Part shown: piece after piece, positions 23,174-39,465 of the stretch
Layout of the letters: each line of letters begins with the position of its first letter
How positions within the stretch are numbered: position 1 is the stretch's first letter
Source of the DNA: an uncultured Cohaesibacter sp.
GTDB lineage: Bacteria > Pseudomonadota > Alphaproteobacteria > Rhizobiales > Cohaesibacteraceae
NCBI RefSeq assembly: GCF_963677725.1
Contig: NZ_OY782507.1
Span: 3,780,501-3,844,500 of the forward strand
DNA: 64,000 nucleotides
Direction of reading: 5' to 3'
Position numbers and translations under genes: made by a program
Notes under the pieces: model-generated
Database searches by the model: none
What the model was told of the DNA's origin: nothing
The model's input: the letters and a program-made list of their open reading frames with translations, nothing else

Positions 23174-24022
23174 ATGCAGATCTGCCGTACGAAGGCCGAG
23201 ATGAGGACGCTTGTACGCCGGTGGCGCCAAGAGGGGCTGCTGGTGGGCCTCGTTCCTACCATGGGATATTTGCATGAAGGACATTTGTCGCTTGTGCGGA
23301 TGGCGGGGGACCAAGCGGACCGGGTGGTGGTGTCGATCTTTGTCAATCCGACCCAATTTGGCCCGAATGAAGATCTGGACAGCTATCCGCGTGATGAAGC
23401 CCGCGATCTGGCATTGCTGGAGGCTGAGGGGGTGGATGCGGTGCTGATGCCTGATGTCGCGGAAATGTATGCTTCGATGGGCGATAGTCTGGTCGAGGTG
23501 CCGGGGCTGTCGGGCATTTTGCAGGGCGCATTGCGGCCGGGGCATTTTCGTGGTGTGACCACGGTGGTGACCAAGCTGTTCAATATCGTCACGCCGGATA
23601 TCGCTGTGTTTGGCGAGAAGGACTATCAGCAATTGACGGTGATCCGGCAGATGGTCCGTGATCTTGATGTGCCGGTGGAGATCATTGGTCATCCAACGGT
23701 GCGCGAGGCGGACGGGCTCGCCATGTCGTCACGCAATGTGCGGCTGTTGCCCTCCCACCGGGCGCAGGCTGTGGCTCTGTCCCGTGCTCTGCAGACAGCG
23801 GCAGAGATGATGGTTGATGAGCCAACCGTCGAAGACTTGCGCGATGCCATCCGTGCGGTGTTGGCCGAAGCCCCGGATGGGGTCGTCAAAAGCGTCGACA
23901 TACGCGATGCTCGCTCGCTGGAGCCTTTGGAAGGGCACCTCAAGGGCGCTGCGGTCATTTTGCTCGCTGTACAGTTCGGCTCGGTCATGCTGATCGATCA
24001 ACAGGTGGTTTATCCCGATTGA
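23174..24022 (+). CDS. panC: Pantothenate synthetase (pantoate-beta-alanine ligase)
   Basis: A 283-residue cytoplasmic enzyme joining pantoate and beta-alanine with ATP to make pantothenate. The nucleotide-binding HxGH motif is in PTMGYLHEGHLSL, FVNPTQFGPNEDL follows, and the KMSKS-like loop is MSSRN. The start at 23174 has GGAAGGA upstream and matches family N-termini; the in-frame ATG at 23084 would add an unlikely extension. panB follows 45 bases on, forming a vitamin B5 pair. Confidence 0.93.
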   Translation: MQICRTKAEMRTLVRRWRQEGLLVGLVPTMGYLHEGHLSLVRMAGDQADRVVVSIFVNPTQFGPNEDLDSYPRDEARDLALLEAEGVDAVLMPDVAEMYASMGDSLVEVPGLSGILQGALRPGHFRGVTTVVTKLFNIVTPDIAVFGEKDYQQLTVIRQMVRDLDVPVEIIGHPTVREADGLAMSSRNVRLLPSHRAQAVALSRALQTAAEMMVDEPTVEDLRDAIRAVLAEAPDGVVKSVDIRDARSLEPLEGHLKGAAVILLAVQFGSVMLIDQQVVYPD

Positions 24023-24067
24023 GCCTCAGGCTCTCGTTTCCCAATCCAAAATCCGAAAGGACATGTC

Positions 24068-24877
24068 ATGAGCGTCCAAAAACAGGTTCGTCGCATCACT
24101 GTGCCACAGATCGCAGCCCGCAAGGGCGGTGAGCCGATTGTCTCCCTTACCTCCTATCACGCCCATACGGCGGCGATTGTCGATCAATATGCGGATTTCA
24201 TTCTGGTTGGTGACAGTCTGGGGATGGTGATGCATGGGATGGAATCGACCGTTGGCGTGTCGCTGGAGCTGATGATCATGCATGGCAAAGCGGTGGTGCG
24301 CGGCACCGAAAAGGCCCTTGTGGTGGTTGATATGCCGTTTGGCTCCTATGAGGAAAGCCCGTCGGTGGCCTTTCGCAATGCGGCCCATATCATGAAGGAA
24401 ACCCAGTGCGGGGCGGTGAAGCTGGAAGGCGGTGCGCGGATGGCCGAGACGATCCGGTTCTTGACTGAGCGCGGCATTCCGGTGATGGCCCATATTGGCC
24501 TGACCCCACAATCGGTGCATACGATGGGGGGCTTCAAGACCCAAGGGCGGCAGGAAGCCGACTGGGAGCAGCATTTCGAAGATGCCCGTGCCGTGACTGA
24601 AGCCGGGGCTTTTGCTATGGTGCTCGAAGGCATGGTCGAGCCGCTGGCGGCTGAAATCACCCGCAGGATCGCCATTCCGACCATTGGCATCGGGGCGTCG
24701 GCGGTGTGTGACGGGCAGATTTTGGTGCTGGAAGACATGCTCGGTTTCAATCCCAAGCCACCCAAATTCGTCAAGGTCTATGGCAATCTGGGTGAGCAGA
24801 TCGACCAGGCGGTCAAGAGTTATGCGGACGAGGTGAAAAATCGCACATTCCCCAGTGAAGACCAGATTTATCGCTGA
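24068..24877 (+). CDS. panB: 3-methyl-2-oxobutanoate hydroxymethyltransferase
   Basis: A 269-residue TIM-barrel enzyme that makes ketopantoate from 2-ketoisovalerate and methylene-tetrahydrofolate, the first committed step of pantothenate synthesis. Visible motifs are the magnesium site in [21 protein letters not shown], and [15 protein letters not shown]. The length is as usual for PanB. It lies directly after panC on the same strand. panD and panE are not in the window. Confidence 0.94.
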
Positions 24878-25068
24878 GCTGGAGCGGATTTGAACTTCGT
24901 CAACATGACCTAGAGATTTCTGATCCGATTGCTGGTAAAGAGGGACCAAACAAGGCCCGTCTCCCGTTGGAAGGCTGCGTCCAATCCGGCGCGATCCAAG
25001 ATCAGGCGGACCTGTGACCCTTGAAAGACCAGCAGCCGCTCGCGCTTGCGCGCATGGTTGCCAAGAGG

Positions 25069-26133
25069 ATGGAGTTTCTTTCCGTGAGCCAAGCCGAGAT
25101 TGTGATCCGCCGCCCCGACGACTGGCACCTGCATTTGCGCGATGGTGCCATGCTGGAAGCGGTTCTGCCCCATACCAGTGCCAATTTCGCCCGCGCGATC
25201 ATCATGCCCAATCTGGTGCCGCCTGTGGTAACCGTTGCTGATGCGACCGCCTATCGCGAGCGTATCATGGCGGCCTTGCCGAAAGGGCATCGGTTCGAGC
25301 CGTTGATGACGCTCTATCTGACCGAGGCGACCGATCCGGCCGATGTGGAACAAGGGGTGAAAGACGGTCTGATCAAGGCGCTGAAGCTTTATCCGGCCGG
25401 GGCAACGACCAATTCGGACAGTGGCGTCAGGACCATCGAAAAGGTCTATCCTGTGCTTGAGAAGATGGCCGAGATTGGTGTGCCGCTCTGTGTGCATGGA
25501 GAAGTGACCGACGCGGATATCGATATCTATGATCGCGAGGCGGTGTTTATCGAGCGGGTCCTGTCGCCGATCCGCTCGCGCTTTGCCGATCTGCGGATCG
25601 TGATGGAGCATATCACCACCGAAGACGGGGTGGCCTTTGTCAGCGAAGCAGGCGAGAATACGGCTGCGACCATCACCACCCATCACCTGATCATCAACCG
25701 CAATGCCTATCTGGTTGGTGGCATCAAGCCGCATTATTATTGCTTGCCGGTGGCCAAGCGCGAGAAGCACCGGTTGGCGTTGCGAGCGGCGGCTGTGTCG
25801 GGCAACGGGAAATTTTTCCTTGGGACCGATTCCGCGCCACATCCCACCCATGCCAAGGAAAGCGCTTGCGGCTGCGCGGGGATTTATACCTCGATCAACA
25901 CGATCAGCTGTCTTGCGCATGTGTTTGAGCAAGAGGGCGCGCTCGACCAGCTTGAGGGCTTTGCCTCGCTCAATGGTCCGGCTTTCTATCGCTTGCCGGT
26001 CAATGAAGACAAGATCCGTCTCTACAAGAGCGACGAGCCGCTTGATCTGCCGACCAAAGTGGCTGTCGAGAGCGAGACTGTAACGGTGTTCGATCCCGGC
26101 TTTCCGCTCCACTGGCATCATGAGGATGTTTGA
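25069..26133 (+). CDS. pyrC: Dihydroorotase, class II
   Basis: A zinc amidohydrolase of pyrimidine synthesis (carbamoyl-aspartate to dihydroorotate), about 350 residues. Metal ligands appear in WHLHLRDG, the carbamylated-Lys segment [25 protein letters not shown] and TDSAPHP. Two starts are close: ATG 25069 and GTG 25084. The GTG has GGAG at a good 9-base distance and gives the E. coli-like N-terminus, so the true protein may begin at 25084. It stands alone, followed by a terminator. Confidence 0.93.
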
Positions 26134-26163
26134 TCAGCCGCAACCGCGCAATTGAAATGACAA

Positions 26164-26196
26164 GAGCCCTGCCAACGTCAGTCGGCAGGGCTTTTT
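26164..26196 (+). terminator. Rho-independent terminator after pyrC
   Basis: GCCCTGCC (26166-26173) pairs with GGCAGGGC (26184-26191), followed by TTTTT. It sits between convergent pyrC and the universal stress gene. Confidence 0.85.
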
Positions 26197-26211
26197 CGTG
26201 ATGGGGAGCGT

Positions 26212-26619
26212 TTAGCGGGTCACATGCACCGCACAATTGGCGTGGCGAACCACACGGGCGGCGGTGGAGCCCAGGAAATAATCCTGCAGTCCCGGGCGGT
26301 GGGACGCCACCACGATCAAGTCGATGTCGTGGTCGTCGGCATATTCGACAATGGACGTGCCAGGGTGACCATCAATCACCACGATTTCGGCATCAGGAAA
26401 AATCTCTGCCTTGTTTTTCAGCTCATGCTTGATCTTGTCGCGGGCCTCGATGCGGACTTGCTTTGGCACTTGGGCGGCGACATAGGCGGGCACTGCGTCC
26501 AGAACATGGATCAGGGTGACCTTGCTGCCCTGATCGGCCAGCACCTTGGCGGCAGCCAAAGCCATGGATGGATCATGGTCGGCGTCAAAGGCGACGGGAA
26601 CCAGAATTTTCTTGTACAT
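26212..26619 (-). CDS. Universal stress protein, UspA family
   Basis: A 135-residue single Usp domain: N-terminal KKILVPVAFDADHDPS, VIDGHPGTSIVEYA, and VVASHRPGLQDYFLGSTAARVVRHANCAVHV at the C-terminus. The glycine-rich loop resembles ATP-binding Usps but lacks one of the usual glycines, so nucleotide binding is uncertain. Usps form small cytoplasmic dimers that respond to starvation or stress. It is transcribed alone, leftward, toward the pyrC terminator. Confidence 0.88.
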   Translation of the reverse strand: MYKKILVPVAFDADHDPSMALAAAKVLADQGSKVTLIHVLDAVPAYVAAQVPKQVRIEARDKIKHELKNKAEIFPDAEIVVIDGHPGTSIVEYADDHDIDLIVVASHRPGLQDYFLGSTAARVVRHANCAVHVTR

Positions 26620-27028
26620 TTATTCCTCCACTTTGCGAAACGATCACGCCCCGATAGGGATCGCTGTTCCACGTTATTTCGATTGCGTCACGACGGTTTC
26701 AGCTTCCTCATGTTGCTGATGTCGCGATTGATCGAGGGATCGGCATGGTGCCTTTTGCCGGTCATTGACCGTCATGATCAGTCTGCGCCAAGGGGCAGAT
26801 GACCTTTTCCCTTATCATATCATGTGGGCCGGATTCCAACACATTATTTTGCTATATCAATTCGTTGGAGGCAGTTTGGCCGTCAAGAAAGGATGGTCTT
26901 GCTGCGGGATGGAGACGGTTTTGCCGCAGGCTGGCCGTGTGTGGCCGGTCTTGAATGATTGGCTTGACCCGCTCGCAGTTTTGAGGCTGCGAGCGGGTGC
27001 TTTATGGGTGTCTCCACACCGGGGTCAC
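26620..27028. other. 409-bp spacer upstream of the stress gene; hairpin near its right end
   Basis: No gene seen. The left part must hold the promoter of the universal stress gene. At 26967-26998, ACCCGCTCGCAG pairs perfectly with CTGCGAGCGGGT around an 8-nt loop. This hairpin lies about 30 bp past the end of the leftward alcohol dehydrogenase gene and is the likely 3' end of that operon, although no strong T-run follows. Confidence 0.5.
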
Positions 27029-28174
27029 TCAGAGAACGGCCTCGAACAAGCCGCGCACATTGTCCGCATCAAGCTCGATCGGATTTCCGCCACAGGACGG
27101 ATCCTTCAGCGCGCCTTCGATCAGCTTGTCGATATCGGGGTCGGTGACGCCAAGGCCGGACATGCGCTTTGGAATGTTGAAACTGTCATTGAAGTCATCA
27201 ACAAAGGCGCAGAAGCCGTCAAAGCCACCACTGAGGCCGAGATATTCGGTGACAGTGTTAAAACGGGCTTCAATGGCCGGGCGGTTGAATTGCAACACCG
27301 CTGGCATGCAGACCGCGTTGGTGGTGCCGTGATGGGTGTGATACATCGCGCCCAGCGGATGGCTCAGTGCATGAATGGCACCAAGCCCCTTCTGGAAGGC
27401 GGTGGCCCCCATGGCGGCTGCGGACATCATGTGGGCGCGGGCCTCGATGTCGGAGCCGTCCTTATAGGCGCGCGGCAGGTTTTCGACCACAAGGCGCATG
27501 CCTTCAAGGGCGATGCCTTGGCTCATTGGATGATAGAAAGGCGAGGAGAAGGCTTCCACGCAGTGGGCAAAGGCATCAAGGCCGGTGCCTGCGGTGATGG
27601 CCGGTGGCATGCCGACGGTCAATTCCGGATCGCAAATGACGATTGTCGGCAGGACCTTTGGATGGAAAATGATCTTCTTCTCGTGGGTTTGGGAATTGGT
27701 GATGACGCTGGCGCGGCCCACTTCCGATCCGGTGCCAGCGGTGGTTGGCACGGCAACGATGGGCGCAATGGCGTCAGCGTCGGCGCGGGTCCACCAGTCA
27801 CCGATATCTTCAAAATCCCAAACCGGGCGGGTCTGGCCAGCCATGAAGGCAACCATCTTGGCCAGATCAAGGCCCGAGCCACCGCCAAAGGCAATGACAC
27901 CATCATGACCACCCGCCTTATAGGCGGCGACACCGGCATCGAGATTTGTCTCGTTCGGGTTCGGGTCGACTTCGCTAAAGATGGCACGGCCAAGGCCTGC
28001 GGCTTCCATCACATCAAGGGTGGACTGGGTGACAGGCAAAGAGGCAAGGCCCCGGTCGGTGACCAGTAGCGGTTTGGTGATGCCCGCCTGCGCGCAGGCG
28101 GCGCCCAATTCCGCAATACGACCCGCACCGAATTTGATGGCGGTCGGGTAATTCCAGTTTCCTACAAGAGTCAT
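27029..28174 (-). CDS. Iron-containing (group III) alcohol dehydrogenase
   Basis: A 381-residue member of the Fe-ADH family, NAD(P)- and metal-dependent. The dinucleotide region contains FGGGSGLDLAKMVAF, and the metal ligands lie in GTGLDAFAHCVEAF, ALSHPLGAMYHTHHG. It overlaps the aldehyde dehydrogenase stop by ATGA at 28171-28174, so the two are coupled and presumably carry out successive oxidations, alcohol to aldehyde to acid. It is the last gene of a seven-gene leftward operon that includes a glutamine synthetase-like ligase. The substrate is not recognisable from sequence; a gamma-glutamylated amino alcohol is my inference. Confidence 0.87.
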   Translation of the reverse strand: MTLVGNWNYPTAIKFGAGRIAELGAACAQAGITKPLLVTDRGLASLPVTQSTLDVMEAAGLGRAIFSEVDPNPNETNLDAGVAAYKAGGHDGVIAFGGGSGLDLAKMVAFMAGQTRPVWDFEDIGDWWTRADADAIAPIVAVPTTAGTGSEVGRASVITNSQTHEKKIIFHPKVLPTIVICDPELTVGMPPAITAGTGLDAFAHCVEAFSSPFYHPMSQGIALEGMRLVVENLPRAYKDGSDIEARAHMMSAAAMGATAFQKGLGAIHALSHPLGAMYHTHHGTTNAVCMPAVLQFNRPAIEARFNTVTEYLGLSGGFDGFCAFVDDFNDSFNIPKRMSGLGVTDPDIDKLIEGALKDPSCGGNPIELDADNVRGLFEAVL

Positions 28175-29550
28175 TTTGTCACCTTCTTGAGATGATAAGA
28201 TTTTGGACGGGTCAGATTGTGGAAGCCGATGATCGACAGACCACCACCGCGGCCGGTCTGTTTGCAGCCTGTCCAGCACAGGCCCGGATCAAGATAGTCG
28301 GCGCGGTTCATGAAGACAGTGCCGGTTTCGATCTGGTCACCCACCGCGATGGCGCGGTCGACATCCTTGGTCCAGAGGCTGGCGGTGAGGCCGAAATCGC
28401 TGTCATTCATCAGGGCAATGGCTTCTGCATCATCCTTGACCTTCATGATACCGACGACCGGGCCAAAGCTCTCCTCGCGCATCACCCGCATGTCATGGGT
28501 GACATTGGTCAGGATCTGCGGAGTGAGATAGGCACCGCCGTCATCCTCAGCGAAGGTGTCTATATGGGCCACAGCACCGGCCTCAATGGCTTCAGCAGTC
28601 TGGGCACGGACCTCGTCGGCAAAGCGCACATTGGCCATCGGACCCATAGTGGTGTCTGGGTCGAGCGGGTCGCCGAGCTTGTAGCCCTTGACGATGGCAA
28701 TGGCTTTTTCGAGGAAAGCATCATACAGGCTCTCATGGACATAGATGCGTTCTATGCCGCAGCAGCATTGGCCGGAATTGAACATCGCACCATCGATCAA
28801 GGTGTCGACGGCGGCGTCAAGATCCGCATCTTCCATCACATAGCCGGGATCCTTGCCGCCCAGCTCGGTGCCGACACCGGTAAAAGTGCCTGCGGCTGCC
28901 TTCTCCATTGCAACGCCACCACCAACAGAGCCGGTGAAATTGATGAAATCAAAGGCATTGTCGGCAATCAGGGCCGAGGTGGTGCCATGGTCAAGGAAGA
29001 CATTCTGGAACACGTCCTGCGGCACACCTGCGGCATGGAAGGCTTCGGCCATCCGCTCGCCGACCAAGAGGGTCTGGGTGGCATGTTTGAGCATGACCGT
29101 GTTGCCAGCGATCAGGGCCGGGGCGACGGTGTTGATCGCTGTCATGTAAGGATAGTTCCATGGCGCGACCACGAAGACGACCCCGTGCGGGATGCGCTTG
29201 ATGAAGCGTTTGAACGTGGCATCTTCGCCAACTTCGATATCCGCCAAGGCCTCTTGGGCGATGGCTGCCATATGAGAGGCGCGTTCATTGAAGCCACCAA
29301 ACTCGCCGCCATAGCGGACCGGGCGGCCCATCATTCTGGCAAGCTCCGGCACGATCGCGTCATTCATCTCGCCCACTTTGGCGACACCGGCCATCACTAG
29401 CGCGATGCGTTCGCTCAATGGGCGTGCGGCCCATTCTTTCTGGGCTGTGCGGGCCTTGTCTGCGGCCTCTTTTGCTGCCTCTAACGATAGGACAGGTCTT
29501 TCAGCAAAGACCGATCCATCGATTGGCGAGATACAGGTCAGCATCTTCAT
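28171..29550 (-). CDS. Aldehyde dehydrogenase (NAD(P)-dependent)
   Basis: A 459-residue ALDH superfamily enzyme. VVAPWNYPYMTAIN is the cofactor-binding start, the general-base Glu is in GVGTELGGKDPGYV, and the catalytic Cys is in FNSGQCCCGIERIYV. EESFGPVVGIMKV is present near the C-terminus. It converts the aldehyde made by the overlapping Fe-ADH to an acid. In the classic puu route the equivalent enzyme is PuuC acting on gamma-glutamyl-aminobutyraldehyde. The gene lies 27 bases after the glutamine synthetase-like gene. Confidence 0.9.
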   Translation of the reverse strand: MKMLTCISPIDGSVFAERPVLSLEAAKEAADKARTAQKEWAARPLSERIALVMAGVAKVGEMNDAIVPELARMMGRPVRYGGEFGGFNERASHMAAIAQEALADIEVGEDATFKRFIKRIPHGVVFVVAPWNYPYMTAINTVAPALIAGNTVMLKHATQTLLVGERMAEAFHAAGVPQDVFQNVFLDHGTTSALIADNAFDFINFTGSVGGGVAMEKAAAGTFTGVGTELGGKDPGYVMEDADLDAAVDTLIDGAMFNSGQCCCGIERIYVHESLYDAFLEKAIAIVKGYKLGDPLDPDTTMGPMANVRFADEVRAQTAEAIEAGAVAHIDTFAEDDGGAYLTPQILTNVTHDMRVMREESFGPVVGIMKVKDDAEAIALMNDSDFGLTASLWTKDVDRAIAVGDQIETGTVFMNRADYLDPGLCWTGCKQTGRGGGLSIIGFHNLTRPKSYHLKKVTK

Positions 29551-29577
29551 TCTTTACGTCCTTGACTGGAGCGCCGG

Positions 29578-30927
29578 TCAGGCTTTTTCAAAACCGCGCG
29601 CGATTTCATAGTCGGTTACAACCCGGTTGAATTCTTCGATTTCCCATTCTGCCGCACGGGCATAATGGTCGATCACCTCGTCGCCCATCGCTTCGCGCAG
29701 CATGGCCGATTGCATCAGGCTATCGCGGGCATCCCGCAGGGTGCGCGGGATGTGATGGGTTTCATCATCGGAATAGGCGTCGCCGGTGAAGGCGGCGGGC
29801 AGTTCCAGCTTTTCCTCAATCCCCTTAAGGCCTGCGGCCAACATGGCAGCAAGGCCGAGATAGGGGTTCATGTCGGCGCCCGGTGTGCGACATTCAACCC
29901 GCACGCCCTTGGTGCCATCGCCACACAGACGGAAGGCAGCGGTGCGATTGTCGACGGACCAGACAATTTGGGTCGGCGCAAAGGTGCCTTTGGCAAAGCG
30001 TTTGTAGCTGTTGATATAGGGCGCCAGAAAATAGGTATAGTCGGACGCATATTTGATAAGCCCCGCCATATAATGATCCATCAATTCGGACTTGGCGAGC
30101 GGTTTTGAGGGGTCATAGAAGGCATTTGCACCCTCTTTCCAGATCGACTGGTGGACGTGGGAGGCGCTGCCGACACGGTCCTGATGCCATTTGGGCAGGA
30201 AGCTGGCGGCCACCCCGTGCTGGTGGGCAATTTCCTTGATGCCATGTTTGGCGATGGTGTGGTGATCGGCGGTCGCCAGAGCGTCTGCATATTTGATATT
30301 CAGCTCTTCCTGACCGGCTTCGGCTTCGCCTTTCGAGCCTTCGATCGGAATGCCCATTTCGCGCAAATGATTGCGGATCGGGCGCATCACGAACTCTTCC
30401 TTGGAGGTCTGGAAGATGTGATAATCCTCGTTATAGCTCGAGATCGTCTCCAGCTTGAAGCCATTGCGGGCAATCTCGTCATGGGTGCCGTTGAAGAGGA
30501 AAAATTCAAGCTCAGTCGCCATCACGGCATCAAAGCCTAAGGCTTTGGCGCGGGCGATCTGTTTTTGCAGCATTGCGCGCGGGGCATGGGCCACCGGTTC
30601 GTGACTGTGATGGTCGATCACGTCACACATCACCATGGCGGTGCCTTCCAGCCACGGCATCGGGCGGATGGTGCCAAGGTCCGGTTTCATCACATAGTCA
30701 CCATAACCGCTTTGCCAGCTCGTCGAGCGATAGCCATCCGGGGTCGCCATGGCCAGATCCGTGGCGAGCAGATAGTTGCAGCAATGGGTTTCGTCCTGGG
30801 CAATATCGAGAAAGGCCTCTGCATGGAAGCGCTTGCCCATAAGGCGGCCCTGCATGTCGACTAGGCAAACCAGAACGGTATCGATGCTTTTGCCAGCAAT
30901 GGCTTGTTTCAGTTCTTCAAAGGTCAT
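29578..30927 (-). CDS. Glutamine synthetase-like gamma-glutamyl-amine ligase
   Basis: A 449-residue class of glutamine synthetase fold. The metal and nucleotide elements show as ATELEFFLF, EAEAGQEELNIKYADAL, GSASHVHQSIW and NRTAAFRLCG. It groups by eye with PuuA/GlnT/IpuC-like ligases rather than GlnA: the N-terminus (VLVCLVDMQGRLMGKRF) is typical of these, and the gene neighbours are catabolic. Such enzymes join glutamate to amines with ATP. ATG 30927 is preferred over the upstream in-frame start at 30978. The amine substrate is unknown. Confidence 0.82.
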   Translation of the reverse strand: MTFEELKQAIAGKSIDTVLVCLVDMQGRLMGKRFHAEAFLDIAQDETHCCNYLLATDLAMATPDGYRSTSWQSGYGDYVMKPDLGTIRPMPWLEGTAMVMCDVIDHHSHEPVAHAPRAMLQKQIARAKALGFDAVMATELEFFLFNGTHDEIARNGFKLETISSYNEDYHIFQTSKEEFVMRPIRNHLREMGIPIEGSKGEAEAGQEELNIKYADALATADHHTIAKHGIKEIAHQHGVAASFLPKWHQDRVGSASHVHQSIWKEGANAFYDPSKPLAKSELMDHYMAGLIKYASDYTYFLAPYINSYKRFAKGTFAPTQIVWSVDNRTAAFRLCGDGTKGVRVECRTPGADMNPYLGLAAMLAAGLKGIEEKLELPAAFTGDAYSDDETHHIPRTLRDARDSLMQSAMLREAMGDEVIDHYARAAEWEIEEFNRVVTDYEIARGFEKA

Positions 30928-30981
30928 GGCGTGCTTTCCAAAAGGGAACCGAAGGCGGCGAACCGCCTCCGGTGACACTCA

Positions 30982-32019
30982 TCAGGTGTAACGATATGGA
31001 CGGCCGGCTTTCTGCATGTCGGCGTTGTATTTCTTGATTATTTCAACAACCTTGGCCTTGGTTTCGGACTCGGCTGCAATTTCGTCCCAGAATTTGACCG
31101 CAGCTTCTTCAACCTGCGCCCATTCTGCATCCGGAATCGAGGTGAGCTTCATTTTGGTGCCATTGACACGCAAGGATGCTTCGCCACCCCAATACCACCA
31201 CTGGCGATAATAGTGGGACTGATCACAGCAGACGCGGAACAGGGTCTGGAGATCTTCAGGCAATTCGTTCCAGCGGCCCATATTGGCGAAGAAGGATCCA
31301 GCCCAGGCACCGGAGATGTTGTTGGTCAGGAAGTAGTTGGTCACGTCTGCCCAACCAACGGTGTAGTCTTCGGTGATGCCGGACCATGCGATGCCGTCCA
31401 GCTCGCCGGTCTGCACTGCTACTTCGATGTCTTCCCACGGCAGGGTCACAGGGACCACGCCAAACTGGCTGAGGAAGCGGCCTGCGGTCGGGAAGGTGAA
31501 GACGCGCTTGCCCTTGAGGTCCGCGAGCGAGTTGATCGGATCTTTGGTGGCGAAGTGGCAAGGATCCCAAGACCCCGCAGAGATGTGCTTGACGCCGACT
31601 TTGGAATATTCCTCATCCCAGATCTCGTTGAGGCCATACTGGTTGAACAATACAGGCACATCGAGGGAGTAGCGTGAGGCAAATGGGAAATAGCCGCCAA
31701 ACACGGTCACGTCGGTTGGCGACGCCATGGAATCATCGTCGGACTGAACTGCATCGATGGTGCCGCGCTGCAAGGCGCGGAACAGCTCGCCAGTCGGCAC
31801 CAACTGATCGGAATAGAACAGCTCGATCTGCATGCGGTCACCAGCGATCTGGTTGAACATCTTGATGGCTGGATCAATCACGTGGGCGGCCAATGCCGGG
31901 CCAGCATAGGTCTGCATGCGCCATTTGATGGTGCTGCTGGCGATAGCCGGTGCCGCCAGAGGCGTGGCAGCTGCACCGATTGCAGCTGTCTTCAGGAAAT
32001 TACGTCTCGTGGTAGTCAT
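30982..32019 (-). CDS. dctP: TRAP transporter substrate-binding protein (DctP family)
   Basis: A 345-residue periplasmic binding protein with a twin-arginine signal (TTTRRNFLKTAAIGAAATPL, cut after APAIA). Typical DctP landmarks are GELFRALQRGTIDAVQ and SLADLKGKRVFTFPTAG. The acidic-ligand arginine of classic C4-dicarboxylate DctPs is not obvious, and the domain looks closer to the TakP-like branch. It supplies a solute, probably the amine or amino alcohol used by the downstream enzymes (inference). It lies 119 bases after dctM. Confidence 0.88.
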   Translation of the reverse strand: MTTTRRNFLKTAAIGAAATPLAAPAIASSTIKWRMQTYAGPALAAHVIDPAIKMFNQIAGDRMQIELFYSDQLVPTGELFRALQRGTIDAVQSDDDSMASPTDVTVFGGYFPFASRYSLDVPVLFNQYGLNEIWDEEYSKVGVKHISAGSWDPCHFATKDPINSLADLKGKRVFTFPTAGRFLSQFGVVPVTLPWEDIEVAVQTGELDGIAWSGITEDYTVGWADVTNYFLTNNISGAWAGSFFANMGRWNELPEDLQTLFRVCCDQSHYYRQWWYWGGEASLRVNGTKMKLTSIPDAEWAQVEEAAVKFWDEIAAESETKAKVVEIIKKYNADMQKAGRPYRYT

Positions 32020-32138
32020 CGTTCGTCTCCGTTAAGGTGATTGCGGTTTCTTTTTCAGAAACTCTTAGGGTTTATTCGAGTTGATTGCCTTTATTGGTCT
32101 TTTCTTCTTGTCTTAATTCTTGGATTGCAAAACCATCC

Positions 32139-33458
32139 TTACTTGCCATAGACCATTTCTGGCAGCCACAGCGCAATCTGCGGGAAGACCATGATGATGA
32201 TCAGGGCAAGGACCATGACGACCACGAAGGGCAGGATGGATTTGTAAATGTCGCGTAGACTGATTTCCGGTGGCGCCATGGCGCGCATCAGGAACAGATT
32301 ATAGCCGAACGGGGGCGTCATATAAGCGATCTGGGTGGTGATGGTATAAAGCACGCCATACCAGATGAGATCAAAGCCCAATTCTCCAACCAACGGCACA
32401 TAAAGCGGGGCAACAATCACCAGCATTGCTGTGTCGTCAAGGAAGGTGCCCATCAGGATGAAGCTCAGCTGCATCAGGATCAGGATCATCCAGGGGGACA
32501 GGCCCATTTGCTCGGTGAAGAGATTGTCGATGGCCTTCACGGCCCCCAATCCATCAAAGACCGCGCCGAAGCCCAGAGCGGCCAGGATGATCCACATAAA
32601 CATGCAGGAAATACCCAAGGTCTGACGGGTGCAGGTCTGGAACACCTTCCAGCTCATGCGGCGTTTGAGGATCGAGGCTGCCAGAGCGGTCAGGGCACCA
32701 ATGGCGGAGCTTTCCACCAGTGATGTCCAGCCATTGACAAAGGGCACCATCATGGCGGCGAAAATGGCCAGAGGCAGAATGCCTGCACCCAGCAGGCGCA
32801 TTTTCTCTGCGCGTGGCACGTCGGTGGCATCCTTGAGCGCTGGTCCAAGCTCTGGTTGGAGGCGGCAGCGGATCCAGATATAGAGCACGAACATCGCTGC
32901 CATCATCAGGCCGGGCAGGATGCCTGCAAGCCACAATTGGCCAACCGGCTGGCGGGCGATCATCGCGTAGAGCACCAGAACCACCGATGGCGGCACCAGG
33001 ATGCCAAGCGACGAGCCTGCCTGAATAACGCCGGTGACCATGATCTTGTCATAGCCACGACGGAGCAATTCCGGCAGGGCAATGGTCGCGCCGATAGCCA
33101 TGCCCGCAACGGACAGACCATTCATGGCGGAAATCAGCACCATCAGGCCAATGGTGCCCATGGCGAGGCCGCCATTCACATTGCCGAACCAGACATGGAA
33201 CATGCGATAAAGGTCGTCCGCCAGACGGCTTTCTGACAAAACGTAGCCCATGAAAATGAACATCGGCAGGGTCAGCAACGGATACCATTTCATCAGCTTC
33301 ATGGCGGCGGAAAAGGGAATGTCCTGACCACCAGTGCCCCACAGGGCAATGGCCGAAATGGCTGCGATGGCCCCGATGGCGCCAAAGACGCGCTGACCGG
33401 AAAAGAGCATCAGCATCATCGAAGCGAACATGAAAAGGGCGATATGCTCCTGGTTCAT
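32139..33458 (-). CDS. dctM: TRAP transporter large permease (DctM family)
   Basis: A 439-residue integral membrane protein with about 12-13 helices. PMFIFMGYVLSES, AGSSLGILVPPSVVLVLYAM and YMTPPFGYNLFLMRA are family hallmarks. It is the sodium-coupled transport subunit. The ATG overlaps the dctQ stop by four bases (33455-33458). Together with DctQ and DctP it makes a complete TRAP carrier. Confidence 0.92.
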   Translation of the reverse strand: MNQEHIALFMFASMMLMLFSGQRVFGAIGAIAAISAIALWGTGGQDIPFSAAMKLMKWYPLLTLPMFIFMGYVLSESRLADDLYRMFHVWFGNVNGGLAMGTIGLMVLISAMNGLSVAGMAIGATIALPELLRRGYDKIMVTGVIQAGSSLGILVPPSVVLVLYAMIARQPVGQLWLAGILPGLMMAAMFVLYIWIRCRLQPELGPALKDATDVPRAEKMRLLGAGILPLAIFAAMMVPFVNGWTSLVESSAIGALTALAASILKRRMSWKVFQTCTRQTLGISCMFMWIILAALGFGAVFDGLGAVKAIDNLFTEQMGLSPWMILILMQLSFILMGTFLDDTAMLVIVAPLYVPLVGELGFDLIWYGVLYTITTQIAYMTPPFGYNLFLMRAMAPPEISLRDIYKSILPFVVVMVLALIIIMVFPQIALWLPEMVYGK

Positions 33459-34036
33459 TCTTTTGTCTCCGGGATGATGTGCCCGTTCAGACGCAGAATG
33501 TCTTTGCAGAGCTCAGAAATGGATTGCAGGAGCATCATCAGGATACCGATGATCATGATGACCTTAATGGGCCAGGCATAAGGCCGCCAAGCGGTGGAAG
33601 AGCGTTCGAGACGGCCGATTTGTTCGCTGCCATCGACTAACCCCATGAAAAAGCTAATCGGGTCCATGCCCCAATAGCCCAGTGAATAGGCCGTGGAGCC
33701 GAGCGCGCCGTAGAGCAGGACGCCGAGATAGAAGATCAGAAACATTACCGTGAAGCAGTCCACGGCGGCCTTGCGGCGGATTGTCCAGTCGCCATAGAAA
33801 AGGTCCATGCGGACGTTGGAGCCCATCAGCAACGAATAGGGCCCGCCCAACATGTAATAGGCGACCATGGCGAACTGGGCCATTTCCAGCGTCCAGAGCG
33901 AGGGGCGAAAGAAGGTCTTCGAAATCGAGGACCAGAGCAGGATCGCCATCAGGACAAACACGCCATACATCACGAAACGGCCTACGCGCAGGTTGAAGCC
34001 GTCAATGATGTCGACGAAGCGGAGAAGGGGTGTCAT
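33455..34036 (-). CDS. dctQ: TRAP transporter small permease (DctQ family)
   Basis: A 193-residue membrane protein with four predicted helices (LRVGRFVMYGVFVLMAILLW at the first). The RPSLWTLEMAQFAMVAYYML stretch is the conserved DctQ region. It stabilises the DctM/DctP complex. Four-base overlaps join it to both the amidohydrolase gene upstream (34033-34036) and dctM downstream. Confidence 0.88.
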   Translation of the reverse strand: MTPLLRFVDIIDGFNLRVGRFVMYGVFVLMAILLWSSISKTFFRPSLWTLEMAQFAMVAYYMLGGPYSLLMGSNVRMDLFYGDWTIRRKAAVDCFTVMFLIFYLGVLLYGALGSTAYSLGYWGMDPISFFMGLVDGSEQIGRLERSSTAWRPYAWPIKVIMIIGILMMLLQSISELCKDILRLNGHIIPETKE

Positions 34037-34809
34037 GCGGACACCTGCCTTAATCGTTGCACAGCCTCATGGGAGCGGAGGATGGAACGGGAGAGGTGAT
34101 TTGCCATTGTGATTGCTTTGTCTCTTGTCTTGATCAGATCGTTACGGATCTCGATCATTGTCGAGTCCAGCCCATGGTCTTCGCCATGTTTTCTAAGGCT
34201 GTAGGTGACGCCGTCGGTGGCGTCGTAAGGCTCGTTGAGGGCGGTCTTGTATGTGCCCTTTGCGGCCTCGATGGATTGCATCTGTTCGCTGAAGGCGGCT
34301 GTCTTGTCGAACAGGAAGCCAATTTCCACTTCCCGATGGCCGCCATGATAGATCGGTGTGAAGCTGTGAATGGTCAGAATGGTCAGCGCATCGCCCACCC
34401 GTTCGCGCTGGGTGCGGACCAATTCAGCTGCGGTGTTGTGGAACGGATTGTGAATGAGGCCAAAGCGGTTTTTGCGTTCTGCATCGCTGAGGCCCTCATT
34501 GCCCGGCACCGCAAAGATCTCGCTTTTGGCAGGCATTGCATCGGGTGCTTCAAGGGGCCTGTTGCAATCATAGACCAGACGCGAGACGCCGCCAGCCACC
34601 AAAGGCGCATCGAGCAGGTCCGACAGGGCGGAGGCAACGTCCAGCGCTCCGATGTCCCAGGCCGCATGCGACGTTGCGGTTTCGGTATCGATGCCTAATC
34701 CGTTGAATTCATTTGGAATATGCAGGGATGCATGCTCGCAAAGCAGCACGAAGGGCGCGGATCCTGTCGTCCGTTGCACATGAACTGGCGACCAAATGGC
34801 TTCGGGCAT
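34033..34809 (-). CDS. N-formylglutamate amidohydrolase family enzyme
   Basis: A 258-residue zinc-type hydrolase of the HutG/PF05013 family: LLCEHASLHIPNEFNGLG carries the N-terminal metal ligands, RLVYDCNRPLEAPDAMP follows, and LTIHSFTPIYHG is the third signature. Family members cleave N-acyl glutamates. No hut genes are present; instead it leads an operon with a TRAP importer, a glutamate ligase and two dehydrogenases, so it may release glutamate from a gamma-glutamyl product, as PuuD does with another fold (inference). GGGAGA precedes the ATG. Confidence 0.83.
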   Translation of the reverse strand: MPEAIWSPVHVQRTTGSAPFVLLCEHASLHIPNEFNGLGIDTETATSHAAWDIGALDVASALSDLLDAPLVAGGVSRLVYDCNRPLEAPDAMPAKSEIFAVPGNEGLSDAERKNRFGLIHNPFHNTAAELVRTQRERVGDALTILTIHSFTPIYHGGHREVEIGFLFDKTAAFSEQMQSIEAAKGTYKTALNEPYDATDGVTYSLRKHGEDHGLDSTMIEIRNDLIKTRDKAITMANHLSRSILRSHEAVQRLRQVSA

Positions 34810-34831
34810 CTTGCTTTCTCCCTGTTAACTT

Positions 34832-34911
34832 ATGTAAAGAAAACTACATGGTGGGCACCAGTGTCAATTTTTTTCTGTATTTTTTTCTACATTTTTGAGT
34901 AGGATGTAGAA
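34832..34911. promoter_or_regulatory. Operator cluster between the amidohydrolase operon and the RpiR gene
   Basis: Two copies of TGTA-N8-TACA occur: 34833-34848 (core AAGAAAAC) and 34876-34891 (core TTTTTTTC). Their centres are 43 bp apart, about four helical turns. A further 8-bp perfect repeat, TTCTACAT (34885-34892) with ATGTAGAA (34904-34911), overlaps the second. The sites flank both divergent promoters and fit binding by the adjacent RpiR-type regulator. Confidence 0.65.
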
Positions 34912-34938
34912 ATGAAACAAAAACCCGAAAGGGGAAAC

Positions 34939-35793
34939 ATGCTAGTTCGTGATCTGATCGAGGCGCATAAGGCCGACCTGACCCCGGCGGAACGTCGGCT
35001 GGTGCCTTATATCAAGGATGACTCGCTGGCGATTGAATTGAAGTCGATCACCAAGCTCGCTGAGGCGGCGGATGTGTCGACACCGACCGTTATTCGGTTT
35101 GCGCGCAAGCTGGGGTTTGACGGCTTTCCCGATATGCAAAATGCCATTCGCACGGAGTTGGCCGAACGGATCAAGCAGCCGCTTGCCAAGTTCAAGACCA
35201 AGCTGGGGGCCGAGCATGAACGGCATGTGGTCAATCGCTTCACCATGCATGTGGTGGAGAATGTCAACCGGACCATGAACCAGCTTGATTATGAAGTGTT
35301 CGATCAGGTCGCCGAGATGTTGGCGGACACCGATAACAAGATCTATTTGCGCGGGGGCAAGATTTCCCAATCCAGCGCCTTTCATTTCTTCAATCACCTT
35401 CAGATCATCCGGCCCAATGTCAGCATGCTGGGGGCGTCGCCAAGCGTCTGGCCGCAGACTTTGCTTGATATGGATGACAAGTCGGTTCTGATCCTGTTTG
35501 ACATTCGCCGCTATGAGCAGGTGCTGGAACGTCTTGCCTCGCTGGCTTCCTTGCAAGGGGCGAAGATTGTGCTGTTTACCGATCAATGGGGCTCGCCGAT
35601 CGAGGGGATAGCCGACAAGTGTTTCCGTGCCATGGTGGAAGCACCGTCAAGTTGGGACAGCACGATTGCCATCAACCTCTTGGTTGAAGCGATGATTGCG
35701 CAGATCCAGCTCCTCAGCCCGGACGAGAGCAGCAAGCGCATCCGGGAAATGGAAAATATGATCGGTGTCACCGAAATTTTCCGCAAAGCGTGA
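34939..35793 (+). CDS. MurR/RpiR family transcriptional regulator
   Basis: A 284-residue regulator. The N-terminal HTH (about 1-75) contains ITKLAEAADVSTPTVIRFAR and the C-terminal half is a SIS domain (LRGGKISQSSAFHFFNHLQI). It probably controls the divergent amidohydrolase-TRAP-ligase operon. ATG 34939 has GGGGAAAC just before it; the alternative ATG 34912 abuts an operator-like repeat, which makes it less likely. SIS domains usually sense phosphosugars, so control of an amine pathway would be a departure; the ligand is unknown. Confidence 0.87.
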   Translation: MLVRDLIEAHKADLTPAERRLVPYIKDDSLAIELKSITKLAEAADVSTPTVIRFARKLGFDGFPDMQNAIRTELAERIKQPLAKFKTKLGAEHERHVVNRFTMHVVENVNRTMNQLDYEVFDQVAEMLADTDNKIYLRGGKISQSSAFHFFNHLQIIRPNVSMLGASPSVWPQTLLDMDDKSVLILFDIRRYEQVLERLASLASLQGAKIVLFTDQWGSPIEGIADKCFRAMVEAPSSWDSTIAINLLVEAMIAQIQLLSPDESSKRIREMENMIGVTEIFRKA

Positions 35794-35824
35794 CCGGTCT
35801 GTGGCTGGCTGCGCTCGATTGGGC

Positions 35825-35868
35825 AAAAAAGCACCCCGCCAGATGGGCACTGACGGGGTGAAGGTTTT
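35825..35868. terminator. Bidirectional terminator between rpiR-type and Gfo/Idh genes
   Basis: CACCCCG (35832-35838) pairs with CGGGGTG (35854-35860). An A6 run on the left and a TTTTT run on the right give T-tracts on both strands, suiting two convergent genes. Confidence 0.75.
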
Positions 35869-35922
35869 TCGTCGTTTCTTGGGAGCGTCTTTTTTTTGGG
35901 GGGGGGAGGGACTTCGGTTCGC

Positions 35923-37086
35923 CTAGCCGATGGTGACCCAGGCGGCATTGTCCTTTGATGATCGAACACAGGCATCAATGAACTGAACGCCCTTCAGCCC
36001 GTCCTGAACGGTTGGATAGGTCACGGCCGGATCCGGCGGTGACCCGTCCCGTTTGGCCAGAATGGCGGCTGCAGCTTCGCTGTAGATGTTGGCAAAGCCT
36101 TCAAGATAGCCTTCTGGATGTCCGGATGGAACGCGGCTCAGTCTGCCTGCCACATCACTGGCCCCGGCTCCGTTGCGCGTGATCAGGCGTTTGGGTTCAC
36201 CAAAGGGCGTGAACCAGAGATAGTTCGGGTCTTCCTGGCTCCATTCCAGTCCGCCCTTGACGCCATAGACACGGAGCTTCAAGGCATTTTCGTTGCCCGG
36301 AGCCACCTGACTGCACCAGAGCATGCCTCGGGCACCGCCCTTGAAGCGCATCATCACATGGCCATTGTCATCGACCTGACGGCCCGGCACGAAGGATTGC
36401 AGGTCTGCGGCGAGGCTTTCCAGCTCCAGTCCGGTGACAAAGCTTGCCAGATTGAAGGCATGGGTGCCGATGTCGCCGGTGGACCCACCCGCGCCAGAGC
36501 GAGCGGGATCGGTGCGCCATGCGGCCTGTTTGAAATCGGCAAATTCAGTCAGCCAGTCTTGCGGATATTCCACCTGCACCACGCGGATGGTGCCAATGTC
36601 GCCGTTGGCAATCATTTCGCGGGCCTGACGCACCATTGGGTAGCCGGTGTAATTGTGGGTCAGGATGAACAGAGCGTCGGACTGTTCGGCCTCTTTGACG
36701 AGCTTTTCTGCGTCTTCCAAAGTGGAGGTCAGGGGTTTGTCGCAAATGACATGGATGCCCCGGCGCAGAAACTCGATCGCTGCGGCGAAATGCATGTGGT
36801 TTGGGGTAACGATCGATACCGCCTCAATGCCATCCTCGCGGTTGGCCTCCATTTCCGCCATCAGGGTGAAATTGTCGTAGCTGCGCTCGGGATCCAGTCC
36901 CAAGGCTGCTGCCGAGGCGTGAGATTTTTCAGGCGTCGAGGAGAGTGCACCTGCGACCAGCTGATATTTGTCATCAATGCGCGAAGCGATGCGATGTACA
37001 CCGCCGATGAAGGCGTCGTTGCCGCCGCCCACCATGCCAAGGCGGATGCGGCCGCCAAGGCTCTCATTGCGTCCGGTGATGGCCAT
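35923..37086 (-). CDS. Gfo/Idh/MocA family oxidoreductase
   Basis: A 387-residue NAD(P)-dependent dehydrogenase. The Rossmann start is RLGMVGGGNDAFIGGVHR, VTPNHMHFAAA follows, and the catalytic Lys is in CDKPLTS (DKP in place of EKP, a common variant). GAGGSTGDIGTHAFNLA is the conserved C-terminal domain His region. It oxidises a sugar or polyol; substrate unknown. It is the last gene of a five-gene sugar operon and lies one base past the isomerase stop. Confidence 0.87.
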   Translation of the reverse strand: MAITGRNESLGGRIRLGMVGGGNDAFIGGVHRIASRIDDKYQLVAGALSSTPEKSHASAAALGLDPERSYDNFTLMAEMEANREDGIEAVSIVTPNHMHFAAAIEFLRRGIHVICDKPLTSTLEDAEKLVKEAEQSDALFILTHNYTGYPMVRQAREMIANGDIGTIRVVQVEYPQDWLTEFADFKQAAWRTDPARSGAGGSTGDIGTHAFNLASFVTGLELESLAADLQSFVPGRQVDDNGHVMMRFKGGARGMLWCSQVAPGNENALKLRVYGVKGGLEWSQEDPNYLWFTPFGEPKRLITRNGAGASDVAGRLSRVPSGHPEGYLEGFANIYSEAAAAILAKRDGSPPDPAVTYPTVQDGLKGVQFIDACVRSSKDNAAWVTIG

Positions 37087-37087
37087 C

Positions 37088-38146
37088 TTAATCCTCCAGT
37101 CCGAGCATCTTGCGGTTCATGGCATCGTCTGCGCCACCATCGGCAAAGTCGTCAAAGGCTTTCTCGGTGACGCGGATGATATGGTCCGAAACGAACTGCG
37201 CGCCTTCGCGGGCACCATCTTCAGGATGCTTGAGGCAGCATTCCCATTCGACAACAGCCCAGCCGTCAAAGTCATTGGCGGCAAATTTCGAGAAGATCGC
37301 GCCGAAATCGACCTGTCCATCGCCCAGCGAGCGGAAGCGACCTGCCCGGTCAACCCAACTCTGATATCCGCCATAAACACCTTGGCGTCCGGTGGGGTTG
37401 AACTCGGCGTCCTTGACGTGGAACATCTTGATCCGGTCTTTGTAGATGTCGAAATTATCCAGATAGTCAAGGCACTGCAGGACATAGTGCGATGGGTCAT
37501 AGAGCATGTTGGCGCGGGAATGGTTGTTGACGCGCTCAAGGAACATCTCAAAGCTCACACCATCATGCAGGTCTTCGCCAGGATGGATTTCGTAGCAAAG
37601 ATTGACATCGCATTCATCCGCGAAATCGAGCAAGGGTTGCCAGCGGGCGGCCAGCTCGTCAAATGCCGCTTCCACCAAACCTGCGGGGCGTTGTGGCCAT
37701 GGATACATGTAGGGCCAGCACAGCGCGCCGGAGAAGGTGGCGTGATTGCGTATTCCCATCAGGCGCGAGGCCATCAGGGCCTTTTTGACCTGATCAACGG
37801 CCCAGAGCTGGCGGGCCTTTGGATTGCCGCGCACTTCCGGGGCGGCAAAGCCGTCAAAGGCTTCGTCATAGGCGGGATGGACAGCAACCAGCTGACCCTG
37901 CAAATGGGTCGACAATTCGGTGACTTCCACACCGGCCTCGGACGCAACGCCCTTGAATTCGTCGCAATAGTCTTTTGAATTGGAGGCCTTGTCCAGATCA
38001 ATCAGGCGGCCATCCCAAGAGGGGACCTGTACGCCTTTATAGCCGCAATCCGCAGCCCAGCGGGTGATGTCGGCCCAGCTGTTGAATGGTGCGTCGTCGC
38101 TGGCAAATTGTGCCAGAAACAGCGCCGGACCCTTAATGGTTTTCAT
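37088..38146 (-). CDS. Sugar phosphate isomerase/epimerase family protein (TIM barrel)
   Basis: A 352-residue AP-endonuclease-2/xylose isomerase-like TIM barrel. Metal-binding positions appear in CYEIHPGEDLHDG, LYDPSHYVL, FHVKDAEF and VVEWECC. Members isomerise or epimerise free sugars or keto-polyols. ATG 38146 (MKTIKGPALFLAQF) is chosen; 38161 is possible. It works with the adjacent Gfo/Idh dehydrogenase and CUT2 importer, a combination often seen for inositol-like or rare-sugar use. The sugar is not identifiable here. Confidence 0.83.
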   Translation of the reverse strand: MKTIKGPALFLAQFASDDAPFNSWADITRWAADCGYKGVQVPSWDGRLIDLDKASNSKDYCDEFKGVASEAGVEVTELSTHLQGQLVAVHPAYDEAFDGFAAPEVRGNPKARQLWAVDQVKKALMASRLMGIRNHATFSGALCWPYMYPWPQRPAGLVEAAFDELAARWQPLLDFADECDVNLCYEIHPGEDLHDGVSFEMFLERVNNHSRANMLYDPSHYVLQCLDYLDNFDIYKDRIKMFHVKDAEFNPTGRQGVYGGYQSWVDRAGRFRSLGDGQVDFGAIFSKFAANDFDGWAVVEWECCLKHPEDGAREGAQFVSDHIIRVTEKAFDDFADGGADDAMNRKMLGLED

Positions 38147-38268
38147 GGCTTTGTCTCCCAAGATCTTTGGCGCCGTCGATTGGCGGATCGCCTTTAATTG
38201 CTGTCATTCCTGTCGGGCATGCCGGGCTCGGCGCTCATGGCTTGGCAAGGCGCTAAGAGCGGGGCGAT

Positions 38269-38303
38269 GAGCCGGGGCTCTTGGAAGGTCCCGGCTCTTT
38301 TTT
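38269..38303 (+). other. Hairpin between the binding-protein gene and the isomerase gene
   Basis: GAGCCGGG (38269-38276) pairs with CCCGGCTC (38290-38297), followed on the plus strand by six T. The flanking genes run leftward, where the A-run precedes and no T-run follows, so for them it acts at most as an mRNA stabiliser of the binding-protein transcript. Confidence 0.5.
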
Positions 38304-38358
38304 CTCATTCAGCCTGATGCGCAGAAGCTGGCCTCAGGCATTGTGTTATGACTGTTCC

Positions 38359-39315
38359 CTAGAACGGAGAGTCCGGGAAGTAGAAGTCCTTGGCATTGTC
38401 CTTGGTGATGAGGGTCGCGCCGAGAATATAGCGACCCGCCACCGGACCATTGGACTTGAAGGCTGCAACGGTGACATCCATGGCGGTTGCGATCATTGCA
38501 GGTGGATAAAGTACATCAACCGGTACCAGTTCGTTGCCGTCCATGACGCCTTTGATGGTTTCTTTCATGCCAGCGCCGCCGACGACGAACATGCCATTGC
38601 CATCACGGCCGGCCTGTTTGAGAGCTGCAACCACACCGATGGCGATGTCGTCATCTTGTGCCCATACGGCGTCAATGTCCGGGAAGCGAGACAGGAAGTC
38701 CTGCATGACCTCAAAGCCATCATCACGGTTCCAGTTGGCATGTTTGTGGTCGAGCACATTGATGCCGGTATCCTTGATGACTTCCATGAATGCGTCGAAG
38801 CGTTCATTGTCGATGATGGTGGGAATGCCGCGCAGAATGACGATATTGTCACCGGATTTCAGGCGCGACTTCATATATTCAGCGGAGACACGACCCATTT
38901 CGGGGTTGTTGCCTGCAACATAGATGTCTTCGATGCCCGGCTGGCTGAGGCCACGGTCAACAACGGTGATCATCGCGCCGGATTTCTTGGCGTTGAGCAC
39001 CGGATCGGTGAGGGGCTCGGATTCAAATGGCAACACCACAAGGGCGTCAATCTGATGGACAGAGACCAGATCTTCGATGGCCGATGCCTGTTGGCTCGGA
39101 TCCGGCGAGTTGACAAGGATCAGGTCAACATCGGGATAGAGGGCTTCGAGGCGTTTTTCCGCTTTTTCGGCATGCCAGTTCATGCCAGCCGCCCAAGCGT
39201 GGGTCGGGGTTGGATAGGACACGCCGATCTTGATCTTGTCGGCGGCGAGTGCCGTGCCTGCGAGCATCATCGCTCCGGTCAGTGCGGCGGTGAATAGTGC
39301 TTTGGGTGCTTTCAT
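38359..39315 (-). CDS. CUT2 sugar ABC transporter substrate-binding protein
   Basis: A 318-residue periplasmic binding protein with signal MKAPKALFTAALTGAMMLAG (cut after TALA). It has the PBP1 ribose-type fold: IKIGVSYPTPTHAWAAGMNW, DALVVLPFESEPLTDPV, AVWAQDDDIAIGV. It delivers an unidentified sugar to the permease and ATPase encoded upstream. It is third in the leftward operon and is followed by a hairpin. Confidence 0.87.
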   Translation of the reverse strand: MKAPKALFTAALTGAMMLAGTALAADKIKIGVSYPTPTHAWAAGMNWHAEKAEKRLEALYPDVDLILVNSPDPSQQASAIEDLVSVHQIDALVVLPFESEPLTDPVLNAKKSGAMITVVDRGLSQPGIEDIYVAGNNPEMGRVSAEYMKSRLKSGDNIVILRGIPTIIDNERFDAFMEVIKDTGINVLDHKHANWNRDDGFEVMQDFLSRFPDIDAVWAQDDDIAIGVVAALKQAGRDGNGMFVVGGAGMKETIKGVMDGNELVPVDVLYPPAMIATAMDVTVAAFKSNGPVAGRYILGATLITKDNAKDFYFPDSPF

Positions 39316-39465
39316 CTTTTCCTCCCAGAATATTAGAAATGCGCCAGTTAGCAGAATTATGGGTCTTGACGAGTGGGTGGGGTTTTTGTGCTCCCCTGTC
39401 GGCCCGCAGGGCAGGTCAACGGTCTTGCCTTGGTGGTCGAGATATGGTCGATGTCGGTGGTCCGA

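Follow-up and report, generated by a model that had tools for sequence, protein, structure and literature searches.

A 64,000-nucleotide stretch of the genome of an uncultured Cohaesibacter sp. (contig NZ_OY782507.1; hereafter the window) carries a seven-gene operon and a divergent RpiR-type regulator gene, which together very probably serve ethanolamine utilization by gamma-glutamylation. This assignment draws on gene content and order, which match the eto operon of Phaeobacter sp. MED193, and on the enzyme families, which match those of Chromohalobacter salexigens. Both the pathway and the operon are already known, and the window represents one further host. The operon occupies 27029-34809 on the minus strand and reads, in order, FGase-type amidohydrolase, DctQ, DctM, DctP, glutamine synthetase (GS)-like ligase, aldehyde dehydrogenase (ALDH) and Fe-alcohol dehydrogenase (Fe-ADH), with the RpiR gene at 34912-35793. 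All eight reading frames run uninterrupted from start to stop codon, and their products were named by Pfam, each over its gathering score, as Fe-ADH, Aldedh, Gln-synt_C, DctP, DctM, DctQ, FGase and HTH_6 plus SIS. These open frames and Pfam names confirm the leftward operon and regulator described in an initial annotation of this DNA. Four-base overlaps between several genes, also reported there, were found from the coordinates at three junctions: ADH/ALDH (28171-28174), DctM/DctQ (33455-33458) and DctQ/FGase (34033-34036). The genes are as follows.

27029 to 28174, minus strand: Fe-ADH, predicted gamma-glutamylethanolamide dehydrogenase (GETADH role); PF00465 at 3.4e-49, PF25137 at 1.2e-41.
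28171 to 29550, minus strand: ALDH, predicted gamma-glutamylacetaldehyde dehydrogenase (GAADDH role); PF00171 at 2.4e-116.
29578 to 30927, minus strand: GS-like ligase, predicted ethanolamine gamma-glutamyl ligase (ETAGA role); PF00120 at 1.2e-100, PDB 5dm3 at 2e-204, and tree position.
30982 to 32019, minus strand: solute-binding protein DctP of a tripartite ATP-independent periplasmic (TRAP) transporter (EtoX role); PF03480 at 9.3e-21, PDB 4uab at 3e-190.
32139 to 33458, minus strand: TRAP large permease DctM (EtoW role); PF06808 at 8.9e-67.
33455 to 34036, minus strand: TRAP small permease DctQ (EtoV role); PF04290 at 5.1e-13.
34033 to 34809, minus strand: FGase-family amidohydrolase, predicted gamma-glutamylglycine amidohydrolase (GGAH role); PF05013 at 1.2e-37, PDB 2odf at 5.4e-60.
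34912 to 35793, plus strand: divergent RpiR-type regulator (HTH_6 and SIS); PF01418 at 3.4e-18, PF01380 at 1.9e-14.

For the ADH gene, the ATG at 28174 is preferable to the GTG at 28279 as a start. The ATG at 30927 fits the ligase, and the profile, PDB and relative searches with this protein used 29578-30933, that is, two extra codons.

In the marine Phaeobacter sp. MED193, a different host from that of the window, all eight genes recur, with locus tags in matching order: RpiR (MED193_10021), gamma-glutamylglycine amidohydrolase (10026), the EtoV and EtoW permeases (10031 and 10036), the ethanolamine-binding protein EtoX (10041), ethanolamine gamma-glutamylase (10046), gamma-glutamylacetylaldehydeamide dehydrogenase (10051) and gamma-glutamylethanolamide dehydrogenase (10056) (PMC10132767). 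EtoX of this strain binds ethanolamine with a dissociation constant of 7.9 +/- 1.9 uM, and phosphorylethanolamine raises five of the eight proteins (10026, 10041, 10046, 10051 and 10056) (PMC10132767). The same paper, crediting Vetting et al. 2015, states that related genes were demonstrated to be functional in C. salexigens and A. tumefaciens. The pathway families given for C. salexigens are PF00120, PF00465, PF00171 and PF05013, with the steps called proposed (PMC9397018, Table 2). The window has the same four enzyme families, with its DctP near 4uab and its ligase near 5dm3 (65% identity), a comparison that covers enzyme families and Csal_0678. In Streptomyces coelicolor, the first step, catalyzed by the gamma-glutamylethanolamide synthetase GlnA4, is demonstrated, and the same subsequent chain to glycine and glutamate is proposed (PMC6529630). 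The GlnA4 route differs in that the legend of Fig. 2 gives a short-chain dehydrogenase instead of an Fe-ADH and names no TRAP or RpiR gene; for the hydrolase, that legend shows a glutamine amidotransferase, whereas the discussion speaks of a formylglutamate amidohydrolase (PMC6529630). The Puu putrescine pathway of E. coli shares with the window operon the logic of glutamylating, oxidizing and releasing, but it has the PuuB oxidase, the PuuD hydrolase, the PuuP symporter and PuuR, unlike the window. Membership of the operon in the Puu pathway was rejected, as Pfam gave no oxidase family among its proteins and the ligase scored below the NCBIfam cut-off for gamma-glutamylputrescine synthetase (GGputSyn; 208.6 vs 650).

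The initial annotation had proposed gamma-glutamylation of an amino alcohol, with an alcohol dehydrogenase replacing PuuB and a hydrolase of the HutG/FGase fold in the role of PuuD. The available literature makes the same assignments for this gene set, with ethanolamine as the substrate. The accompanying remark that no described pathway has exactly this set does not stand, as the eto operon of MED193 had already been described.

In the proposed mechanism, DctP would bind periplasmic ethanolamine and DctQM would bring it into the cell, where the GS-like ligase would join it to glutamate at the expense of ATP, yielding gamma-glutamylethanolamide. The Fe-ADH would oxidize this product to gamma-glutamylacetaldehyde, and the ALDH would convert the latter to gamma-glutamylglycine. 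The FGase-fold enzyme would then split gamma-glutamylglycine into glycine and glutamate, so that glutamate would be regenerated. RpiR would act at the divergent spacer to regulate the operon, probably by repression through two sites that flank the promoter. By analogy, the window proteins would act like their ethanolamine-binding or induced relatives. We infer the role of RpiR and the steps after the ligase for the window; in the available literature those steps are assigned rather than assayed. As oxidation and hydrolysis are known there by assignment, the intact operon offers a usable test system. Ethanolamine is a common component of cell-membrane lipids, and this route lets bacteria use it without a B12-dependent lyase or a microcompartment. 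A search of the host genome (99.56% complete) for EutB matched nothing, making the B12-dependent route unlikely in this host. The importer gene has been reported in about 5 to 10% of marine bacteria, with expression at every sampled depth (PMC10132767). To this picture, the window contributes another host and a testable candidate operator pair.

We compared the operon across the best 80 of at least 598 candidates from a ligase scan, a choice that makes the locus set lean toward near relatives. Sixty of the 80 loci had room for the whole operon, and the other 20 were set aside. All seven genes stood in the window's order in 42 of these 60 evaluable loci, with an opposite-strand RpiR gene in 42 of 42; across all 80 loci, the seven-gene order was found in 44, and 43 of these had RpiR. 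This gene order is not due to chance. All eight operon genes are also present on plasmid 1 of P. denitrificans PD1222 (L088), where an acetate-CoA ligase gene and a sodium:solute symporter gene come next.

DctP matched PDB 4uab at 3e-190, gapless across residues 27-344, and the next PDB sequence at 4e-18. The 4uab structure is Csal_0678 in complex with ethanolamine (PMC12410723). Phe174 of DctP aligns with the Arg of 2hzk and 4yzz, and the position is occupied by F (44) or Y (8) across 52 aligned sequences; residues were counted in loci with long enough matches, namely 51 for DctP, 68 for the ADH and 64 for the ALDH, each plus the window. Csal_0678 is without the TRAP Arg, and Phe is its most frequent replacement (PMC4646407). 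The window DctP falls within the Csal_0678/EtoX group and has no carboxylate-binding Arg. E217, common to the 4uab chain, shows no variation across the 52 sequences; it may correspond, given a numbering shift of 3, to Glu220 of Csal_0678, which clamps ethanolamine (PMC12410723). The NCBIfam TAT-signal (twin-arginine translocation) domain TIGR01409 scored 22 bits, over its cut-off of 16.7, and the Pfam TAT signal stayed below its gathering score (19.8 vs 22.7 bits). A DctP relative at 1e-60 or better was found in 20 of 41 related genomes, the window's own counted, and the ligase gene lay beside DctP in four of five 4-kb stretches from other genomes, with none at L099. Within the window's genus, the DctP relative is patchy, reaching 1e-60 or better in 8 of 17 other genomes (G001-G017), one of which has two copies.

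The 65% identity of the window ligase to 5dm3, taken over the matched stretch, compares with 56% to 11zs, 39.5% to the annotated IpuC of P. aurescens TC1, 30% to GlnT, 27.6% to PuuA and 26% to both E. coli GlnA and the host's own GlnA; the nearest named ligase among the matches listed was that of Cohaesibacter celericrescens (82%). In a tree of 26 rows, comprising 17 of the 80 loci and nine other rows, the window ligase and 5dm3 grouped in a 19-row clade (97/99) nested in a 21-row clade (95/99) that excludes IpuC, PuuA, GlnT and GlnA. The branch order of PuuA, IpuC and GlnT is unsure because of very long branches. The tree pairs 5dm3, which we take to be the C. salexigens ligase, with Vreelandella arcis of the Halomonadaceae (100/97). 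A tree with these four reference enzymes was the check suggested by the initial annotation, and it gave no clustering of the window ligase with GlnA.

The same chemistry could have another small amino alcohol as its main natural substrate, for example (S)-2-amino-1-propanol (alaninol), which would yield alanine and not glycine. This reading is improbable. It draws on IpuC of P. aurescens TC1, a gamma-glutamylisopropylamide synthetase that, among the rows used, is closer to the window ligase (39.5%) than any other named relative outside the clade, and on the alanine dehydrogenase gene found nearby on the ipuC plasmid. PDB entry 4xf5, presumably with an aminopropanol ligand, has the same sequence as 4uab. 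However, the IpuC neighborhood contains P450, ferredoxin and glutamine-amidotransferase genes, all absent at the window operon, and ethanolamine is the reported ligand of both Csal_0678 and MED193 EtoX, in the strain whose proteins rise on phosphorylethanolamine. Ethanolamine and 2-amino-1-propanol may both be used to some extent.

A nitrogen-assimilating role for the ligase, as a glutamine synthetase (GlnA or GlnT) sitting by chance in a transport operon, is scarcely credible. The protein does belong to Pfam Gln-synt_C, and its best NCBIfam model is the type III glutamate-ammonia ligase, but its score for that model was 249.2 bits, where 469.6 are required. The GS N-terminal domain likewise stayed under the Pfam gathering score (19.6 vs 33.4 bits). 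A true GlnA was rejected on the following grounds: the NCBIfam GlnA cut-off was not reached (247.4 vs 429.15 bits); the DGSS and NLYDLP motifs, presumably the GlnA loop and the GlnA adenylylation site, are both missing from the window ligase and both present in E. coli GlnA and the host's own GlnA; and the ligase, at 26% identity to GlnA and 30% to GlnT, falls in a separate clade. The genome's one other Gln-synt_C gene, located elsewhere, also speaks against this reading, being the host's own GlnA at 61% identity to E. coli GlnA.

That the amidohydrolase, as a PF05013 member, is an N-formylglutamate deformylase and the operon part of histidine breakdown is hardly conceivable, since it scored 22.4 bits against the HutG model TIGR02017 (cut-off 278.75) and the match over that cut-off (379.9 bits) is a different gene elsewhere in the genome. 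HutG identity was rejected on these grounds; the initial annotation had named an amidohydrolase specific for N-formylglutamate, together with normal growth of mutants on all amines, as a finding that would speak against its proposal, and by sequence the genome's HutG is another gene. The sole solved relative of the window FGase at E below 0.001 is Atu2144 (PDB 2odf), whose source species is named in the available literature as bearing the ethanolamine pathway. As for the oxidation enzymes, D200, H204, H268 and H282 of the Fe-ADH, which we take to be metal ligands, are invariant in 69 of 69 aligned sequences, as are N132, K155, E229 and C262-C264 of the ALDH, presumably its catalytic residues, in 65 of 65.

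Several points weigh against the ethanolamine assignment. The likeness to MED193 consists of gene names and locus-tag order. In MED193, EtoX rises under phosphate starvation alone (+2.14) (PMC10132767), and induction is therefore not by substrate only. The GlnT, PuuA and IpuC rows are also without DGSS and NLYDLP, so that loss of these motifs separates the ligase from GlnA only. Finally, 18 of the 60 evaluable loci are without part of the set, through losses or swaps, and some of these have a ligase and an ADH but no matching ALDH or FGase; the gene set is thus not strictly fixed. ABC (ATP-binding cassette) transporter genes ahead of the ligase with no TRAP match, the arrangement of L027, were also seen at L020 (5326-12495; too short to count), where no ALDH or FGase match was found within its 13.8 kb. 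An ABC permease gene and a DeoR gene lie near the ligase relative at L061 (5929-8379), and DeoR adjoins FGase-ligase-ALDH-ADH at L046 (8432-9999). Such ABC- or DeoR-linked ligase relatives may handle another amino alcohol, or their missing steps may be encoded elsewhere.

The regulatory features proposed for the operon are as follows.

34833 to 34848, minus strand: candidate RpiR operator 2, TGTAGTTTTCTTTACA; 10 of 10 matches to TGTAR-N6-YTACA.
34862 to 34867, minus strand: candidate -35 box TTGACA, between both candidate operators; recurrence in spacers.
34876 to 34891, minus strand: candidate RpiR operator 1, TGTAGAAAAAAATACA; 9 of 10 matches to TGTAR-N6-YTACA, 43 base pairs (bp) from operator 2.
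30948 to 30973, minus strand: intercistronic hairpin in the dctP/ligase gap; 11-pair stem.

A de novo search of 51 RpiR/FGase spacers returned a width-16 palindrome with the consensus TGTAAAaATtTTTACA, with a log-likelihood gain of 241 compared with 50-52 for shuffled spacers (20 random starts per width for the real set and eight for the shuffled, with three shuffled sets per width), and the site form TGTAR-N6-YTACA was proposed from it. Forty-four of the 51 spacers held a site matching at 8 or more of the 10 positions (shuffled mean 10.4, maximum 22 over 200 rounds), and 25 held a pair 41-46 bp apart, counted from 7 of 10 matches each (shuffled mean 4.1, maximum 10), with both the consensus and this spacing picked post hoc on the same spacers. 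Pairs in which both sites had at least 9 of 10 matches occurred in only nine spacers. A 29-bp spacing was commoner (30 of 51), which partly reflects the TTGACA box. In the 4.6-Mb genome, the paired form occurred once, at this locus, and was absent from the reversed control, after one position of the pattern had been loosened to accommodate the weaker of the two window sites. The paired TGTAR-N6-YTACA sites flanking TTGACA are likely to be RpiR operators. A sigma-70 scan of 26100-36000 gave no promoter, compared with 4.4 expected from shuffling, and the -35 box assignment consequently rests on the recurrence of TTGACA or TTGACG in 47 of the 51 spacers. We tentatively suggest, at somewhat less than an even chance, that RpiR represses the operon through two sites about four helical turns apart that flank the -35 box, and that it lets go once a pathway compound occupies its SIS domain, which could be a gamma-glutamyl intermediate instead of ethanolamine itself. 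The MED193 paper names the RpiR gene and, in the available text, says nothing more of it (PMC10132767).

The hairpin lies directly 3' of the dctP stop, with a minimum free energy of -23.9 kcal/mol in the window. Of the 53 loci from which the dctP/ligase gap could be extracted, 49 have a fold below -10 kcal/mol there, in varied sequences, a figure given without a shuffled control. The hairpin possibly keeps the dctP message above that of the downstream genes. An Rfam search of 24000-38500 returned zero matches. In the available parts of the literature on the pathway, we found no mention of the operator pair or the hairpin, both of which are ordinary in kind.

Downstream of the operon lies a universal stress protein gene (26212-26619), followed by a terminator-like hairpin (26165-26192). 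TeaD is the universal stress protein partner of the ectoine TRAP system. The window's gene was rejected as an importer partner and left out of the operon because 409 bp separate it from the ADH gene above and just one of the 80 loci (L006) has a relative; in 62 of the 80, the sequence continues for 1000 bases or more past the ADH match. On the other side, leftward genes at 35923-40485 encode a Gfo/Idh/MocA oxidoreductase, a xylose-isomerase-like protein, a periplasmic binding protein and a permease, and look like a separate operon of the sugar or inositol type, the substrate class being a guess.

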